DNA from: a virus
Length of the DNA: 24,265 bases
Strand: one strand, 5' to 3'
IMG/VR virus record: IMGVR_UViG_3300032046_003457
Location: 1 to 24,265 of that record
The first letter of the stretch is position 1; each line of letters starts with the position of its first letter. The notes beneath the pieces are model-generated. The model worked only from the letters and a program-made list of their open reading frames with translations, was not told the DNA's origin and did not search any database. A program made the position numbers and the translations under genes. Positions 8,433 through 22,988 of this stretch are shown one piece after another.

Positions 8433-9572
8433 TTATAATTGTGCCTCTAAAGCCGATATATAGATAATCCCCATCAATGAAAGCGGGACAATACTAATAA
8501 GAAAACTGCCCATTCCCAGAACCAGATAAACGACAAATGCCATCGTGTATCCAGCCAAAAGCATACTGTCTTTGGTCATAATTATCCGTTTGAATAGGTT
8601 GCATAAATAACCACAGATTAATACAAAAAGAATAATCCCCCCGTTGTGCAATATCTCCAGAAAATCATTCTCAACAGCAAAAGCCAAAGATTGGGTATGG
8701 TCTCTAATCTGACGAAGCAGGACACTGCCTATCCCCCAGCCCGTAAGTGGTCTTGCCTTCCAGTCTAAAATGACGAGCTTCCACAATTCGAGACGCCCAG
8801 AGAAGGAAAAATACTGCGGATGGTATTGATAGACTAAAACGCCCATCGTTAGTAATGTGATTAAAATAAAAACGATTGCTTTAAATTTCTTCATAAACAA
8901 AAGATAAGTTAAAAATCCGATTATAAATGCAACCAATGAAATGGTGCTGTTTATCAGGGTTAATGTTATAAAAGCCGATACATAAAAAAGTTTATATCTT
9001 AAATCCTTGAATATAAGGCATAGCGGAGATAACATAGCGATGAAATTTCCAGTGTGCATACTATTGCCCAAAAAAGTAATCATATGCGAGGACTTAGTAT
9101 TGATTATCCATTTTAAATCTTTGGTGAAAATCTGGTCTAATCCGAAAAACTGCAATAGGGCATAGGTGGAAAATCCGAAACAAACCCAGCATAAAGCCTT
9201 CGCCATCGTTACCCATCTTGTGAGATTATCCGTATATTCCACCAAATCTTTAATTAAGAAAATCGCCAAGATTGCATTTAACGACGGAAGAAAATTCCAG
9301 ATATTCCATAATACCTTTTGCCCTTCCTTTGCCATTATGATAGGTTTATAAAAATACCAGCCAAAAGATAAGATGACATAAATCAGAATGAGGCCAAGCC
9401 ACCTATTCTTAAAAGTCGCAGTTTTTTCTTTCTGAGATATAAAATTATAACCGAGCAGAATAAATCCACCCATTAAAAATACTATGTTTTTAGGAAGCCA
9501 GAAGTTGTCAATTATGTTTGGGATTATCGTCAGTGACGATAAAATCAACAATGAAATTAAAATATTAAACAT
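8433..9572 (-). CDS. O-antigen ligase/polymerase-like (WaaL/Wzy superfamily) membrane protein
   Basis: This 379-residue protein has about ten hydrophobic segments. It shows the signature of the Wzy_C/O-antigen ligase superfamily in the large periplasmic loop: SGRLELWKLVILDWKARPLT, then GWGIGS, then ENDFLEILHNGGIILF. Family members join lipid-linked sugar polymers or transfer them to lipid A core. The arginine of SGR..LW is present. The position usually occupied by His in the HN(D)xxLxxLxxxG motif reads Glu (VENDF), so catalysis may be altered. The gene sits between a head protein and coiled-coil genes inside the late operon, an unusual place. No SD is visible upstream; a hairpin lies 9 nt before the start. 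It could alter host surface polysaccharide during infection. Confidence 0.75.
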   Translation of the reverse strand: MFNILISLLILSSLTIIPNIIDNFWLPKNIVFLMGGFILLGYNFISQKEKTATFKNRWLGLILIYVILSFGWYFYKPIIMAKEGQKVLWNIWNFLPSLNAILAIFLIKDLVEYTDNLTRWVTMAKALCWVCFGFSTYALLQFFGLDQIFTKDLKWIINTKSSHMITFLGNSMHTGNFIAMLSPLCLIFKDLRYKLFYVSAFITLTLINSTISLVAFIIGFLTYLLFMKKFKAIVFILITLLTMGVLVYQYHPQYFSFSGRLELWKLVILDWKARPLTGWGIGSVLLRQIRDHTQSLAFAVENDFLEILHNGGIILFVLICGYLCNLFKRIIMTKDSMLLAGYTMAFVVYLVLGMGSFLISIVPLSLMGIIYISALEAQL

Positions 9573-9580
9573 AATTTAGT

Positions 9581-9611
9581 AAAGAGGGCGAACTCATCGC
9601 CCGCCCCCTTT
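9581..9611 (-). other. Hairpin between head protein and O-antigen ligase-like genes
   Basis: On the minus transcript, AAAGGGGGCG and CGCCCTCTTT form a 10-bp stem with one G-U pair and an 11-nt loop; AGTA/TACT can extend it outside. It lacks a real U-tract (CTTTACT follows). It may be a weak terminator, a processing site, or a barrier that lowers expression of the membrane gene that starts 9 nt later. Confidence 0.5.
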
Positions 9612-10178: not shown

Positions 10179-11399
10179 TTAATAAGTATCGCCATTTAAC
10201 AATACGCCATTACGACCCAAATTGGTCATAGCGGCGTTTCCAGCCCACAATACAAAGGTTACTAAATCATCTTTAGTCTGGGACTTGATAAAATCACCTA
10301 TCTCGGCATCTCTGCCCTCTCTTACAAACAGGCGATAATATTTAGCCACATTTAAGTAGTAACCATAGTTTGCGGGACATCCATCATCGGCAAATATCAA
10401 AGCACCTTTATAACGAATGTTGCCAACAATCTACCCGATATTTCTATCGGAATTGGACTATATCATCCCTTTCGGGGACTGCACATTAGTCTCTACGCAC
10501 GCACCAATTTCTTGGGCTTGGTTCGGTATTGCCATACTTGATAAAACAAGGTTAGGTTTCACCGAGTTCGCAGTCTTTGCTTTTGCACTATGTTTTAATT
10601 TATGACAAGACAAAAACATATTGCAAAAGGGGCTTGGTTTAGCAAACCCCGCATCAATCATCTTTTCGTCGCCAGGCCCTATGCCCATTATGGGGAGATT
10701 GACTGTAAAAGTAGATGTCAATTCTCTCTCAAAGTTATCCATCTGAGCACCCGTAAGAACTATCGTATCGGGTGTCTCGTCAAATCTCGAACACTGACGA
10801 TACAAAGTCCTCATCATATTCAGACCATTGGTGTTAAACGCAGAAGCGACATTTTGTGATTGATGCTTCCACACTGACAAAGTTGCCCTTGATAATCCTC
10901 CGACTGTTCCCGTAGTTGTAGATGAAGTAAGCATATTTTGTAATCCCGTGATTGCCCGCAGGTTAGTTTCTGCGGCATCCGAGAAAATCCCGACAGTTGA
11001 ACCACCGATAGAATCTCGCATTGCGATTTCCGCTGACTGCAAGAACATCTCAATCAGGTCAATCTCATTCCCCTCTGGTGTCTTAATCATATCAAGACCA
11101 GACACCTGAACGGGAACTGCGATTTGTTTCCATTCATAGATGCAACTCGTTGTTGGGTCTCCTCTCACAGGAGTTAATGTATCAAGGTCAGTATAACCCT
11201 GTGCCGTCGGAAGTTCCTTCAAGATGTTGAAACGAAGATGCGGTTTTCCGCCAGTCCGGATTATCGCTCCCATATCTTTTGCACGATATAGAAGTGCTGT
11301 CCTGCTTGACACATTGTCAAACAAAATAGGCTCGGCTTCATCAGCGACTATCGAGAAAATACGTTGGTATTCTCTTGTGACACTGAGATTCCCTGCCAT
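10179..11399 (-). CDS. Major capsid protein, HK97-fold, split by a group I intron
   Basis: Exon 1 runs 11399-10646 and exon 2 runs 10426-10179. Splicing gives a continuous 333-residue product. Exon 1 holds an N-terminal arm and the segments YEWKQIAVPVQVSGLDM, AEIAMRDSIGGSTVGIFSDA, GLQNML and GTVGGLSRATLSVWK, typical of phage capsid proteins of the GGIxR/xxxW type. The spliced junction reads DAGFGNIRYKGALIFADDGC, which fits the conserved 'DAGFxNLxYKGxPIxxD' region. The C-terminal end holds FVLWAGNAAMTNLGRNGVL, also typical. Without splicing, exon 1 reads 62 residues into the intron and stops at TAG 10458-10460. The SD is AAAGGAGA. The scaffold gene is just upstream. Confidence 0.93.
10427..10645 (-). 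ncRNA. Group I self-splicing intron (219 nt) in the capsid gene
   Basis: Manual folding on the minus strand gives all core elements. P1: exon GGGGU (10650-10646) pairs with GCCCC (10633-10629), with the U-G wobble at the 5' splice site. P2: 10628-10613 with 10596-10581, two 7-bp stems. P3: GACTGC (10575-10570)/GCAGTC (10482-10477). P4: TCGGT (10565-10561)/ACCGA (10527-10523). J4/5 GAAA. P6: ACCAA (10522-10518)/TTGGT (10507-10503). P7: GACTA (10491-10487)/TAGTC (10460-10456), in S-element context GATATAGTCC. P8: CCC-GAAA-GGG. P9: CCGATA-GAAA-TATCGG. The terminal G is 10427, and P10 pairs TTGG (10426-10423) with CCAA. The predicted splice restores the capsid frame. The intron carries no endonuclease ORF. 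Confidence 0.92.
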
Positions 11400-11445: not shown

Positions 11446-12288
11446 TTATTTCCTTCCCAAACGTTCCAAAACCCTGTCCTTAAAACTTTCAAAGGTTACT
11501 CTTCCCGCCTTGTCCTTTTTTAACTCGGTCTTGGCGGTAAAAGAAGGTTCTGCACCGCTGGGAGAAGCACCCTTTTTCTTTCTTTCCAATTCCTCTTTTT
11601 CTTTTTTCTTTGCTTGGTTTAGGAGAGCAGTTTCGACCTCAGAGTCATCAGCGAAGTGATAGAGAAGTTTGGTAACTGATTGATGGGGATATTTTATAGC
11701 TGTCGCCATAATATCCTTTTTATATTTATCAACCAATTCTTTTCCAAACCTTTCCTCTAATTTCACCAGTTGGCTTTCTACCCTATCGGTTTGCCCTATT
11801 AAAGCGGCATTCTCTATGATAGAAAGTTTTTGTTCCAATTTGGATACAGTCTCTTTTAGGGATTCCATATCCTTCGTCGGAGTTTCTTCTTTGATGATTT
11901 CTCTGATGTCCCGCAACTGTTCTCTTTGTGCTGGGTCAGAAGTATCCTCAAGGAGTTTATCGAGTTTTTTAAGATTTCTGTCTTTGATTTCATCAGACTT
12001 AGAAATCTTGCCCGACTTGTAGTCAGAGTAAACCTTATTAAGGGTTTCTTTAAGTTTTGGGTCGGTTTCCATCTCGTCAACGATGGCTTTTAAACCCGCA
12101 ACTTTTGTTTCTTCCACCTTAATGGTTTCTTCTCGCTTCTTTAGGGCTTCGGTATTCTGGGCATAATCATCACCTTGTTGTGCTAACCGAATTAACTCAT
12201 CTTGAGTAACTTCTCTTTCCTGCCCTTTGACCTTAATCTTAAAAACCTGTTTAGATGGGTCTTGGGTCGTAGTAGTTGTTTCTGCCAT
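11446..12288 (-). CDS. Scaffolding protein
   Basis: This 280-residue protein sits just before the capsid gene and is almost entirely helical and charged. The N-terminus is Thr-rich, then KIKVKGQEREVTQDELIRLA and QQGDDY form a motif very common at the start of phage scaffold proteins. The middle is a coiled coil (KETVSKLEQKLSIIE). The C-terminus is basic, with KKKEKEELERKKKG and a final helix ending in LERLGRK, suited to binding capsid. Role: it guides procapsid assembly and leaves the head before maturation. SD is present (GAAGGAG); the start is GTAAAATGGC-type as for two other genes in the window. Confidence 0.8.
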   Translation of the reverse strand: MAETTTTTQDPSKQVFKIKVKGQEREVTQDELIRLAQQGDDYAQNTEALKKREETIKVEETKVAGLKAIVDEMETDPKLKETLNKVYSDYKSGKISKSDEIKDRNLKKLDKLLEDTSDPAQREQLRDIREIIKEETPTKDMESLKETVSKLEQKLSIIENAALIGQTDRVESQLVKLEERFGKELVDKYKKDIMATAIKYPHQSVTKLLYHFADDSEVETALLNQAKKKEKEELERKKKGASPSGAEPSFTAKTELKKDKAGRVTFESFKDRVLERLGRK

Positions 12289-12343
12289 TTTACACTCCTT
12301 CTTTAGTCGGCTTCTTCAGCTAAGACTTTTAGGTTGGTGTTAA

Positions 12344-12490
12344 TTATTTCTTTTTGCCTCTGTTAAAAGGCTGGATGTTACTGGATGAAGCGGTTGGGCC
12401 TTCCACGATGGAAGTCTTAACCTGCTTAATCCCGCCTGCCCGACTCGGTTGAGTTGGGCTCGATACTCTTTTAGGATTGTTACTACCCAT
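12344..12490 (-). CDS. Small basic Ser/Pro-rich protein (48 aa)
   Basis: Start ATG 12490 has a strong SD (AGGAGG). The product begins MGSNNPKRVSSPTQPSRAGG and ends NRGKKK; it looks disordered and basic. It fills the gap between the DUF6496-like gene and the scaffold gene. Its function is unknown. The good SD and fit between neighbours support a real gene. Confidence 0.6.
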   Translation of the reverse strand: MGSNNPKRVSSPTQPSRAGGIKQVKTSIVEGPTASSSNIQPFNRGKKK

Positions 12491-15462: not shown

Positions 15463-15836
15463 TATTTTCCTTCCCAATCCTCTAAAACTGGCTTATCGTA
15501 TGGTATCCAAATCCAGTTCCCGTCTTTGTTAGATAATAAACTCACTGCTGGATAATGGAATACTGGAGATTTCAGTCCCTTCTCCCAAAAGATATATTCA
15601 TAAGCATTTAAAGGAGCACCGCAAATAGGGCATACCATCGGGTCGGCTTCTTTTGGTTGTGGTATGTCGTTTACTGGTTTAAAATCTTCAGCCTTAACTT
15701 GTTCGCCTTTTATAATTTCTTTTTGGTAATAATATAAAAGTTTATGTTCTTTGGGGCAATAGATAGGAATTTCGGCAAAGGCAGAATTAACAACTGTTAA
15801 TAATAAAAAAATAGTCAATAAAAATCTATTTTTCAT
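15462..15836 (-). CDS. Secreted zinc-ribbon protein
   Basis: This 124-residue protein begins with the Sec signal peptide MKNRFLLTIFLLLTVVNSAFA. The mature part has a single CPKE at about residue 27 and CPIC at about 69, followed by GAPLNAYEYIFWEKG, so it could bind one metal, though the first site has only one Cys. Zinc-ribbon proteins without signal peptides are common between terL and portal, so the export signal is unusual. Its start overlaps the terL stop by ATGA. Function unknown. Confidence 0.6.
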   Translation of the reverse strand: MKNRFLLTIFLLLTVVNSAFAEIPIYCPKEHKLLYYYQKEIIKGEQVKAEDFKPVNDIPQPKEADPMVCPICGAPLNAYEYIFWEKGLKSPVFHYPAVSLLSNKDGNWIWIPYDKPVLEDWEGK

Positions 15837-17539
15837 CTTCCCACTGTTTGAAATTTACCCCAAGGGTTTCTATGAAATTCCTTCAACCTCTCATCCCGTA
15901 TTTTAGTATACTCCCCGAAAGTCATCCCCTCATCTTTCTCTTCCTCTTGTGGTTTCTCTGGATAGACCAAAGACAATCTGCTCAAAAAGGTCATAGCATC
16001 TAATAGGTCATCGTGTTCACCCATCGGGAAGTGCATAAACTCGAGTTCCATCTCTTCCGTCAAATCATAGTTCCTTCCATCAAAAATGCTATGTTTAACT
16101 ATTTTTCCTTTTTTAGCCCAGAGCCATTTATGCTGGGCATATTGCGGGACTAAAATGTTTCGGATGTTGTCCTCTTTGGCAACCCTTATTGTTTTTATGG
16201 GGGTTACGGTAAAAAACAACCTTTTCTCCCTGCGTTTTTCTTCCAAGTAAAAATTGTCATCCCCTAACCCGACTTCCTCCCATCCGCTTTCCCTGATAGA
16301 CCATTTGGTAGCCAACTCCATAGCGGTATCAATTCTTTGTTTTGGGTCAAGTTTGTCCCTGATGCCGTCAACTATTAAAAACCTTAACCTATCTTCAACA
16401 TAGGCGAGTTTTACGACTAACATAACCGTATAATCAGACCTCTTTTTCCTTTTTGAGGCAGGGTCAACCAGAAGATAACTTATTCCATCTTTTGGTATCG
16501 CATCGAAATAAGCAATCATCTCCTGCTTAAACTGCATCTTGCCTGGGTCGTCGGGTTTCAAAAGCAACTGACAATTAAAATACCACATATCTTTTTTTAG
16601 TTCTTCTATCCCTTCGGGGGTGTATCTTTGTGGATTTGAGATATTTTCAATACTCAAGTTGTTCGAGTCTCTGTCTTTAAGTATTGGTATATCAATCACT
16701 TTTATTCTGGGGTCGTTCAGTTTGGCGGAATAAAGGTCGGCAAAATTATACCTTGTCCCTTCGTAATCCTGCAAGGGTGTCTGTTGGTCGTCAAAATGCC
16801 CCAGATTAAATATAGTATCCCAATTATGGGTCTTTTTAATCTGTTCTTCCGTATTTACGCTATCCTCGGTAACCAAATCGTTTTTCTTGACAATCTGCCA
16901 ATGCCCACCAGTTATCTCCGTATCCACCCCTACCGCCATAATAGTATGCTCATCTCTTCCCCAGTCAGTCCGATTGGCAACCGAAAACTCTTTCATATTG
17001 CCCCACTCTTTTGTGTTGGGGATGTATTCTGGATATAAATTCTTAATTCCTGTGGTAAGAAAATAGTTCTTTATCGAAACGAGGTTCGCAGAGGCGTTGT
17101 CCTGTTTGTTGTGGGCGATTAGGATGTGGATGTTGGAAAAGTTCAAAATCAACTGTAAGGAATGGACTTTGGTGATGATGGTCGTTTTGTAAAATATCCG
17201 ATAACATAAATAAAGCCTTTGTAAAAACTCCAAATCTTTCTCTGGATTGTCGGTTACTGCATCCATAGGAAGCATATATCTGTTCGGTTTGTGTATATCC
17301 AGACTCACAATCTTCCAGTTCATCAAAGAGACCTCATCACAGAAAGGTTTATAATAATCTGGATATCGGGCTATCTTATCATTACCTACAAAGCAACAAA
17401 GCCAGAACAAATCATTCTGAGCCAAGAATCGTCTCTTGTCCCGTATCAGGCCTAAAGCGACTTTATCGGATGAGGCTGATTTTATCTCCTCATCGAATTG
17501 AGCGGTTTTCTGTTCTATTGCTTGTCTGAGTTTAAGCAT
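15833..17539 (-). CDS. terL: Terminase large subunit (terL)
   Basis: This 568-residue protein combines an ATPase domain with an RNase H-like nuclease that cuts and packages DNA. The nuclease is clear: YLLVDPASKRKKRSDYTVML around residues 359-378 and the final HDDLLDAMTF near 512 are the acidic clusters of the family. The ATPase signals deviate: the Walker A site reads RIFYKTTIITK instead of R-G-x-x-K-T/S-T, and the Walker B region is IVKKNDLVTED rather than hhhhDD. The start codon is directly after a terminator-like U-tract with no SD. The stop overlaps the next gene's start. Confidence 0.85.
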   Translation of the reverse strand: MLKLRQAIEQKTAQFDEEIKSASSDKVALGLIRDKRRFLAQNDLFWLCCFVGNDKIARYPDYYKPFCDEVSLMNWKIVSLDIHKPNRYMLPMDAVTDNPEKDLEFLQRLYLCYRIFYKTTIITKVHSLQLILNFSNIHILIAHNKQDNASANLVSIKNYFLTTGIKNLYPEYIPNTKEWGNMKEFSVANRTDWGRDEHTIMAVGVDTEITGGHWQIVKKNDLVTEDSVNTEEQIKKTHNWDTIFNLGHFDDQQTPLQDYEGTRYNFADLYSAKLNDPRIKVIDIPILKDRDSNNLSIENISNPQRYTPEGIEELKKDMWYFNCQLLLKPDDPGKMQFKQEMIAYFDAIPKDGISYLLVDPASKRKKRSDYTVMLVVKLAYVEDRLRFLIVDGIRDKLDPKQRIDTAMELATKWSIRESGWEEVGLGDDNFYLEEKRREKRLFFTVTPIKTIRVAKEDNIRNILVPQYAQHKWLWAKKGKIVKHSIFDGRNYDLTEEMELEFMHFPMGEHDDLLDAMTFLSRLSLVYPEKPQEEEKDEGMTFGEYTKIRDERLKEFHRNPWGKFQTVGR

Positions 17540-17577
17540 AAAAAAAAGCGACCCAGGTAATTAAATACCCAAGTCGC
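17540..17577 (-). terminator. Rho-independent terminator-like hairpin abutting terL start
   Basis: On the minus transcript the stem GCGACTTGGGTA/TACCTGGGTCGC is 12 bp (three G-U or U-G pairs) with a 6-nt loop UUUAAU, followed by eight U. It meets the normal definition of an intrinsic terminator. The terL ATG follows the U-tract at once. It could end part of the transcripts from the small-terminase block and so set the ratio between small and large terminase. Confidence 0.75.
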
Positions 17578-17594
17578 CTTAGTGAGCTCAGCGA

Positions 17595-17762
17595 TTAGTC
17601 TATAATCGTTTCTTTCCTACATCTTTCTTTGTTGTCTGGATAAACATAAATCTCTGGTATTCTGTCTCTGTCACGTTTTATGACTATCATCCGAAGTTCC
17701 CCGCCCTCTATCATAATCTTGTTCGCCGCCCTCCAGAGGACATCTTTCCAATGTTCTTCCAT
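17595..17762 (-). CDS. Small charged protein (55 aa)
   Basis: ATG 17762 opens MEEHWKDVLWRAANKIMIEG and ends RKETIID; the product is mostly charged with aromatic residues. It is just before the terL leader hairpin. The SD is weak (GAAGTGAG). The upstream hydrophobic gene stops 1 nt before the start, so coupling is likely. No family recognised. Confidence 0.55.
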   Translation of the reverse strand: MEEHWKDVLWRAANKIMIEGGELRMIVIKRDRDRIPEIYVYPDNKERCRKETIID

Positions 17763-17763
17763 C

Positions 17764-17901
17764 TCACTTCCATACCCTCCAGAAGCGGATGATGGTAAAT
17801 AGGGCGATGATGTCTAAGTCAAAAAGAACGAAAAAGATTACTTGGTCGTAGGGGGTTTCCCAGATTTTAAAGAACTTCAAAGCCAAAAAGAAAAAACTCA
17901 A
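17764..17901 (-). CDS. Possible small hydrophobic protein (45 aa)
   Basis: A TTG start at 17901 opens a highly hydrophobic frame with FFFLALKFFKIWETP and VIFFVLFDLDIIALFTIIRF, ending RVWK. One or two membrane helices are possible. TTG and the lack of a strong SD lower confidence. The stop is 1 nt from the next gene's ATG. It could be a small membrane protein of unknown role. Confidence 0.35.
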   Translation of the reverse strand: MSFFFLALKFFKIWETPYDQVIFFVLFDLDIIALFTIIRFWRVWK

Positions 17902-17981
17902 TTTTTTGCTATAAAATTTTTAAAGAAAGGATTTTCTAAAAGTTGTGGAAATGAGGAAGTGGTGGGAAGAGATATATATAC

Positions 17982-18047
17982 CTACCCCCTGTCCCGAACT
18001 CCCTTATCTCTGAGCCTGTCCCTCTCCCGCTCAATCAGCCTAATCAC
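17982..18047 (-). CDS. Possible micro-protein (21 aa), GTG start
   Basis: A GTG at 18047 overlaps the stop of the 105-residue gene (GTGA). The frame reads a charged 21-residue peptide, IRLIERERDRLRDKGVRDRG after the start. Its TAG is followed by GTATATATA, similar to the repeats upstream of the small terminase. Very short, so doubtful. Confidence 0.25.
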   Translation of the reverse strand: MIRLIERERDRLRDKGVRDRG

Positions 18048-18361
18048 TCTGACCTAAACTGCCCCTTATTACCACGCTTCCAATAGTCTATGTCTATCTT
18101 GCTCTTCTTAATGCCCAGTATCTCACGCTGTATAAAGTCAAGGCACTGTCTAATACCTGGACTCAAGTTCTCATAATGGATATAGTTCTCTACCGTTCCC
18201 TTTGCGTGCTCGTGCCCCATTGTAGCTCTAAGCACGCCTAACAAGGTAATAACCATTCCTAACTGCATTATGTTCATCCCGGGATAATGCTTGTCTATAA
18301 TCTTAATATGTTCTGCTATGACTGTTTTATCCATTCTCTTGGCTTGCCCCTTGCCCTGCAT
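18044..18361 (-). CDS. Hypothetical protein (105 aa)
   Basis: The frame begins MQGKGQAKRM; an internal ATG at 18334 (MDKTVIAEHIKII) is an equally reasonable start. The product has an amphipathic helix-rich middle (NIMQLGMVITLLGVLRATMG) and a charged C-terminus (DYWKRGNKGQFRSE). It overlaps the 49-residue gene. I recognise no family. It lies between the two terminase subunit genes and may aid DNA packaging. Confidence 0.55.
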   Translation of the reverse strand: MQGKGQAKRMDKTVIAEHIKIIDKHYPGMNIMQLGMVITLLGVLRATMGHEHAKGTVENYIHYENLSPGIRQCLDFIQREILGIKKSKIDIDYWKRGNKGQFRSE

Positions 18362-18493: not shown

Positions 18494-18928
18494 TCAAGAT
18501 TGAGCGTTCTCTAAAGGAGTGATGATAGATAACCTTGAAAGAGGAAATAATCTGTCTTTTATCCTGCTTAGCTCTTCCTTTTCTTCTGGTGTATAGTCAA
18601 TATGCCCTTTAAATTCCTGTTTGTCTGTGAACATAGCCAGGTATTTACCAAGCAGTTCGTCAACTCTTGTCATTGTAGCGATGTCGCCTTTTTTTTCAGC
18701 TAAGTCTCTATCATAGTTTAATCTCTCTAATACCATTACTGGCGTTATCTCGCTTGCTTTGAATTCTGTAGTTATCTGCAATAATGCCTCTTGAATAACC
18801 TTATTTCTTATACCTACCTTTGCGGTGTTTTTAGAGTAGTTGCTAAGAATAAGGGCTTTTTGGTAAGACTTACCTTCTTTGAGTTTATTTGCTACTTTGA
18901 TTGTATTTAAAGGATTGACCTTATTCAT
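18494..18928 (-). CDS. terS: Small terminase subunit-like protein (terS)
   Basis: This 144-residue protein has the helix-turn-helix style of Terminase_2 small subunits: KALILSNYSKNTAKVGIRNK matches the A-x-x-x-x-GYSxxTA pattern, followed by VMVLERLNYDRDLAEKKGDI (a helical region) and ELLGKYLAMFTDKQEF, the common C-terminal motif (GKYLxMFxDK). Small subunits recognise the packaging site and stimulate TerL. It is the first sizeable gene of the late operon and stands about 950 nt upstream of terL. ATG 18928 is preceded by GGTAGGT. Confidence 0.8.
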   Translation of the reverse strand: MNKVNPLNTIKVANKLKEGKSYQKALILSNYSKNTAKVGIRNKVIQEALLQITTEFKASEITPVMVLERLNYDRDLAEKKGDIATMTRVDELLGKYLAMFTDKQEFKGHIDYTPEEKEELSRIKDRLFPLSRLSIITPLENAQS

Positions 18929-19136: not shown

Positions 19137-19165
19137 ATATTAACTCAAGGGGAAGCGTTTGTCAA
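19137..19165 (-). promoter_or_regulatory. Sigma70-type promoter for the late operon
   Basis: Minus-strand TTGACA (19165-19160), 17-nt spacer, TAATAT (19142-19137): near-consensus. The predicted start, about 19130, is at the leader stem-loop. It drives the small terminase and the genes beyond it. Divergent early genes begin about 240 nt to the right. Confidence 0.8.
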
Positions 19166-19407
19166 GATTTTATTTACCTATCCTTTCGGGATTTTCGCAA
19201 ATGTTATTTCTTAAAAACAAAGATTTATTTATAGTTAACATAACTTGACACACCTTTTTTAAGACCTCGTCGATAAAAAACTTTTGTAGTTAACAGAGTT
19301 ATTATTTTATTTTCAAATGAGGACTTGACAAATACCTATATATTATGGTATATTATATGTAGAAGTTAAGTTAAGAGTTTTATCACAAGAGGAGGAGGTG
19401 AGAGAAA
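19166..19407 (+). promoter_or_regulatory. Early (rightward) promoter and control region
   Basis: TTGACA (19325-19330), 18-nt spacer, TATATT (19349-19354) faces the plus-strand genes. A second TTGACA at 19245-19250 has no good -10. Two TAGTTAACA copies (19232 and about 19286) with short inverted repeats (AGTTA-ACA-TAACT; TAAC-AGA-GTTA) could be repressor operators. Apart from repeat copy 3 at the left, I see no gene here. Confidence 0.6.
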
Positions 19408-22763: not shown

Positions 22764-22988
22764 TTATTTTTTTAAGTTATATTCCTGAATCTGGGCTTGT
22801 CTTTCCTGAGCTTGGGTTTGTCTTTCCTGAGCTTGGGTTTGTCTTTCCAAAACCTCGCTTTTAGGGCTTTCGTATATTGCATAAGTATTTTTTAAGTCAT
22901 CAATACTCTGCCTTATTGCCCTCAAGTCTTTTGAATAAGCACAGCCGCTTAAAAATAAAATTAGGATTAACACAAAAATCTTTTTCAT
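22764..22988 (-). CDS. Lipoprotein with heptad repeats (74 aa), spanin-like
   Basis: MKKIFVLILILFLSGCAYSK holds a lipobox (LSGC, Cys16), so it is probably lipidated and anchored in a membrane. The C-terminal region has three near-perfect heptads (ERQTQAQ), a predicted coiled coil, from a 21-bp tandem repeat. The size and design suit an outer-membrane spanin subunit, paired with the membrane protein next to it. SD: AAAGGAGA. Confidence 0.65.
   Translation of the reverse strand: MKKIFVLILILFLSGCAYSKDLRAIRQSIDDLKNTYAIYESPKSEVLERQTQAQERQTQAQERQAQIQEYNLKK
22793..22855 (-). repeat. Three 21-bp tandem repeats in the lipoprotein gene
   Basis: Units 22793-22813, 22814-22834 and 22835-22855 (third is diverged at the end) each encode seven residues of a heptad. 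Unit change keeps both frame and coiled-coil phase. Confidence 0.85.

Follow-up and report, generated by a model that had tools for sequence, protein, structure and literature searches.

The window, by which we mean the whole stretch of DNA analysed, is a linear virus record of 24,265 bases whose late genes lie on the minus strand. Among them is terL (15833..17539, minus), which encodes a terminase large subunit of 568 amino acids (PHROG 38, E 2.8e-38). Immediately upstream of its start codon (ATG, 17537..17539, minus) is a terminator-shaped stem-loop (17545..17580, minus; 36 nt) with 15 pairs, a 6-nt loop, a folding energy of −20.5 kcal/mol, and a z score of −6.7. The stem is built from 6 G-C, 5 A-U, and 4 G-U pairs, arranged as a 12-bp core with an AAG/UUU extension. 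It runs into a U8 tract (17540..17547, minus), whose first three U can pair with the AAG that opens the stem at its 5′ foot. The terL ATG begins at the very next base (17539), leaving 0 nt between tract and start codon. Read on the minus strand, the junction is ...CACU AAGGCGACUUGGGUA-UUUAAU-UACCUGGGUCGCUUU UUUUU AUG CUUAAACUC..., comprising the hairpin, the U-tract, and the start of terL. The first-pass annotation had placed a hairpin and eight U directly before this ATG, with no SD sequence in between; both observations were borne out, the stem (17580–17545) extending slightly beyond the 17540–17577 originally noted. Upstream of the hairpin lies an ORF of 55 amino acids (17595..17762, minus) with an SD-like sequence of its own. 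A small-terminase block had also been proposed on this side of terL and could not be confirmed: 18494–18928 has no Pfam or PHROG match, so that the label reflects position only.

Reading 5′ from the terL ATG, the in-frame codons reach a stop inside the hairpin loop with no further ATG, GTG, or TTG on the way, which makes ATG 17539 the first start of the ORF. Irrespective of what precedes the gene, the start residue is the same as in the window in 8/9 full-length TerL relatives (L002, L003, L004, L005, L007, L020, L021, and L023), which share the N-terminal pattern M-x-[KR]-[LI]-R; in L009, the most distant relative, the start was called one to three codons off. This conservation indicates that the terL start call is reliable and that the gene has no SD sequence of its own, and it rules out a wrongly assigned start codon. 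SD sequences are present at 21/35 ORF starts in the window and absent at terL. Together with a hairpin occupying the SD slot, this absence suggests weak initiation at terL.

The hairpin and its U-tract satisfy the usual description of an intrinsic terminator, having a stable GC-containing stem-loop on the sense strand, a U-tract directly 3′ of it, and a structure that is kept while its sequence is not. None of 200 shuffles of the hairpin segment folded as well. Across 60 dinucleotide shuffles of the whole window, a run of at least seven T following a hairpin of −15 kcal/mol or better never occurred, compared with −20.5 kcal/mol at the real site; no other terminator-like site in the window comes close to it in strength. 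The hairpin sequence is unique within the window, and Rfam family models gave no match around 17480–18100. Folding of the opposite strand yields only −11.1 kcal/mol (sense, −20.5), and the same asymmetry is seen in the sister phage L002 (−13.1 versus −21.5 kcal/mol). Because of the G-U pairs in both hairpins, the structure is strong in the late-sense RNA only.

We then considered the terL junction in related phages. Ten IMG/VR contigs belong to the same group, three of them referred to here as G4 (L005/L019; 21.5 kb), G5 (L007/L015; 40.8 kb), and G7 (L009/L017; 43.8 kb). Isolate phages gave distant TerL matches only, with no near relative and no nucleotide match, and no relative was found among prokaryote genome contigs. 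L002, whose TerL is 64% identical, carries a different hairpin (−21.5 kcal/mol) at the same spot, followed by UUUUUUAUUU and ATG. In L003, L004, L007, and L009, terL abuts or overlaps the preceding gene; in L005 it is preceded by different stem-loops and a weak SD sequence, and no such hairpin precedes terL in L021 or L023. We rejected L020 as a third strong case, as its hairpin is weak (z −0.7), which leaves the window and L002 only. The terL tree joins these two phages (support 92/99), and for this reason the simplest history would be that the hairpin was gained once, on the branch leading to both, and that its sequence then turned over while the signature persisted. Absence of the hairpin from most other relatives indicates that it is not essential to the family, and this absence is also what could be expected of a hairpin without regulatory effect, left as a remnant or arisen incidentally in a compact junction. 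We regard such an origin as very unlikely given the strength of the hairpin, its U-tract, its sense bias, and its retention in L002 despite turnover of the sequence.

Similar elements recur at other late junctions of the group. From the late regions of 11 contigs we collected hairpins that fold at −13 kcal/mol or better and have at least six U among the next eight bases. Intergenic matches numbered 9 in the sense and 1 in the antisense direction, while coding sequence contained 5 sense and 4 antisense matches; intergenic DNA makes up 5,229 of the 140,366 bp screened (3.7%). Two of the sense matches counted as coding (L023 and L008) stop 30–31 nt short of the portal start and overlap an ORF that was called mechanically. 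Different phages use different junctions: terL in the window and L002, portal in G5, L021, L023, and L008, scaffold in L020 and L021, and the gene for a Wzy_C-like protein in G5, L021, and L023. Of 15 such hairpins folded on both strands, 12 favor the sense orientation by at least 2.7 kcal/mol, 3 are equal to within 1 kcal/mol, and 0 are clearly stronger in antisense. Before portal and scaffold, the start codon is found 20–68 nt downstream of the hairpin and U-tract, in several cases behind an ordinary SD sequence. Contact with the start codon is thus particular to the terL and Wzy cases and does not characterize the whole set.

A terminator signature in the late direction is common to terL, portal, and scaffold, and on this basis we read the terL-start hairpin as an intrinsic terminator within the late operon that may serve as a leaky attenuator or as an antitermination target. 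Judging from sequence, we assign this reading a probability of roughly 0.6. An intrinsic (Rho-independent) terminator would then sit between terL and the genes upstream of it. RNA polymerase arriving from upstream would pause on the U-tract, and some transcripts would end at about 17540–17543, just before the terL AUG. The remaining RNA, arising by read-through or antiterminated late in infection, would carry terL, portal, and the head genes. Partial ending versus read-through at the U-tract would in this way set the ratio of upstream RNA to distal late RNA. Phage late operons have to supply thousands of copies of the capsid protein but only a few packaging motors. Since the AUG directly follows the U-tract and has no SD sequence, read-through RNA would probably also be poorly translated at the terL start, so that little is made of a motor protein required in few copies. 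Using the sigma-70 consensus only, we found no clear promoter between the terL-start hairpin and the head genes; the gap before the scaffold gene, considered as a promoter site, was rejected because it proved to contain a conserved small gene and lacks a sigma-70-like promoter. Strong termination would accordingly starve the capsid genes unless much of the RNA reads through, and read-through would have to be substantial if these genes depend on it. The first-pass annotation had proposed an attenuator or an antitermination target. The stem with U8, its retention in L002, the sense bias, and the sense terminators at other late junctions favor such a terminator, whereas no antiterminator (or phage RNA polymerase) was recognized among the subset of genes scanned, which comprised the window and part of G5.

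A second junction bears on how the hairpin might work. A gene for a Wzy_C (O-antigen ligase-like) membrane protein (8433..9572, minus; PF04932, E 3.4e-11) forms part of the late operon in 7/7 genomes (window, L011, L012, L013, L020, L021, and L023), where head genes lie on one side of it and tail genes on the other. Its product could possibly have a serotype-converting or receptor-changing function. In the window its ATG at 9572 has no SD sequence and follows a hairpin in the SD slot (minus strand; inner part 9586..9602, full stem about 9610–9580). A strong hairpin fills this slot in 7/7 genomes at a mean pairwise identity of 57%. Three of the Wzy-junction hairpins (G4, L020, and G7) have no U-tract, indicating that not every member of the wider set is terminator-like, and the pattern at this junction looks translational or RNA-protective rather than terminating. 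We screened 257 predicted starts (ORFs of at least 60 aa in eight family contigs) for hairpins folding at −14 kcal/mol or better whose foot lies at most 13 nt from the start. The only matches were the Wzy_C-like gene, in 7/7 genomes having it, and terL, in the window, in L002, and weakly in L020; none of these starts has a good SD sequence. Among control phages, such starts occur in T4, where most are accompanied by an SD sequence, and several are found in two phages of 51–54% GC; a Vibrio phage (43% GC) lacks them.

This restriction to two SD-poor starts, and the invariance of the Wzy hairpin compared with its variable U-tract, are consistent with a hairpin that serves as a translational brake or RNA-stability element. 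By filling the SD slot it would block ribosome loading, or run-on from the upstream gene, and protect the 3′ end of the upstream RNA, keeping TerL (and the Wzy_C-like protein) low with little termination of transcription. We consider this somewhat unlikely, since a brake has no need of the 8–10 nt of almost pure U that both strong terL cases keep at the stem foot, and since the similar portal and scaffold hairpins with U-tracts are 20–68 nt away from the start and in several cases precede an ordinary SD sequence. Because the Wzy hairpin is kept in 7/7 genomes while the U-tract is absent in three, we keep a dual role open as a tentative possibility. The hairpin in the SD slot would then be a leaky terminator and, on read-through RNA, a barrier (or structured ribosome-landing site) at a start without an SD sequence, tuning the low-copy TerL and Wzy_C-like membrane protein within a strongly expressed late operon.

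The hairpin could instead promote translation of terL. T4 genes 25 and 38 have an accommodated, or split, RBS (PMC3014915, citing Nivinskas 1999 and Malys and Nivinskas 2009). The terL site resembles these in having a hairpin in the SD slot directly before the AUG and a possible SD sequence at the 5′ foot, and in occurring in close relatives only. The corresponding motif, UAAGG (17577..17581, minus; SD-like duplex of about −3.2 to −3.6 kcal/mol), is found at the hairpin foot in the window and also in L002. Folding of the hairpin would bring it to 8–10 nt from the AUG; with the hairpin looped out, the spacing is 9 nt in the window and 7 nt in L002, within the required range of about 5–11 nt. 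Compared with the T4 sites, however, the SD-like motif in the window is weak and paired into the stem, the energetics are unfavorable, and the U-tract is long. The net energy is +7.6 kcal/mol in the window and −1.6 kcal/mol in L002, against −4.6 for gene 25, −3.5 for gene 38, and −1.5 for denA, so that scoring against these three T4 genes does not support an accommodated RBS in the window, where the SD-like motif is not free to pair as long as the hairpin is folded. UAAGG may act as a weak SD-like motif, or it may only be the A-tract that pairs with the U-tract, a role in which AAGG would be expected anyway. The layout also fails at the Wzy sites of the window and G5, and a spacer consisting only of U is unnecessary for it. 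Promotion of terL translation by this route therefore appears unlikely. The initial suggestion that the hairpin itself controls terL translation is compatible with the occupied SD slot and the lack of a normal SD sequence, whereas the T4-type layout is energetically unfavorable in the window. We also discarded the idea that G-rich 5′ arms are hidden SD sequences, as control hairpins are themselves mildly biased (59% G over C) and the energetics fail at most Wzy sites. T4 denA (L032, T4 118001–167000, around 19927, minus) has the arrangement UAAGGAG-UGGGCC-gcaa-GGCCCA-UUUUAUU-AUG; this resembles an accommodated RBS and would be the third in T4.

The leaky-terminator reading has partial precedents. 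In T7-like phage LUZ100, as in T7, the capsid gene is directly followed by an apparently strong terminator, and termination sites are read through serially (PMC10134795). The window site shares with this terminator a GC-based stem with a U-tract, the sense orientation, and a structural-operon junction at which read-through is needed. It differs in that its U-tract ends at the ATG of the next gene, which has no SD sequence, and in its place in the operon, ahead of terL instead of behind the capsid gene. In lambda-type late antitermination (the Q and N systems), a terminator upstream of the late genes must be passed. The window terminator is likewise upstream of late genes and needs passage; in contrast to the lambda targets, however, no nut- or qut-like site was identified, nor an antiterminator gene among the genes scanned, and the terminator is not a leader terminator beside a late promoter. 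A limited collection of literature, when searched, contained no report of a terminator touching the terL start. The site is a textbook-shaped terminator in an unusual place, its arrangement being new and the kind of signal known. Terminators that shift between junctions, together with an SD-slot hairpin fixed in 7/7 genomes, would show a single late transcript being graded without extra promoters. Such sites also call for caution, as automated prediction of starts and of operons can go wrong when a terminator and a start codon are in contact.

Several other elements were observed in the window. About 300–700 nt upstream of terL is a conserved non-coding G-rich element (about 17970–18030, minus; AAGGGAGTTCGGGACAGGGGGTAGGTATATATATCTCTTCCC), with counterparts in L002 (~670–745) and L020 (~500–545) and equivalents in L021 and G4; it is a candidate cos/pac site. 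Between the plus- and minus-strand blocks, region 19137–19354 contains divergent sigma-70-like promoters (minus, 19165–19137, TTGACA-17-TAATAT; plus, 19325–19354, TTGACA-18-TATATT) and probably acts as the main switch between early and late expression. In the major head protein gene (10182–11399, minus), an insert of about 217 nt at about 10420–10640 interrupts the coding sequence and matches the Rfam group I intron family RF00028 (46.4 bits, E 8.6e-11, just below the gathering score of 50). The gene is uninterrupted in relatives, and both halves were recovered by tblastn; the intron-like insert makes the C-terminus of the window ORF 10458–11399 false. A few nucleotides before the SD sequence of the scaffold gene (11446–12288, minus) lies a small conserved RNA element, AGWC-YAA-NNN-GAAA-NNN-[AC]-GWCU (about 12300–12350, minus), present in 7 genomes. 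Counted on 5 rows, one of them loop-trimmed, it covaries, with 4/7 of its pairs changed on both sides and 100% of cells paired; it is a candidate translational operator. Finally, a minus-strand ORF contains an imperfect tandem repeat that reads CCTGAGCTTGGGTTTGTCTTT on the plus strand (22786–22837).
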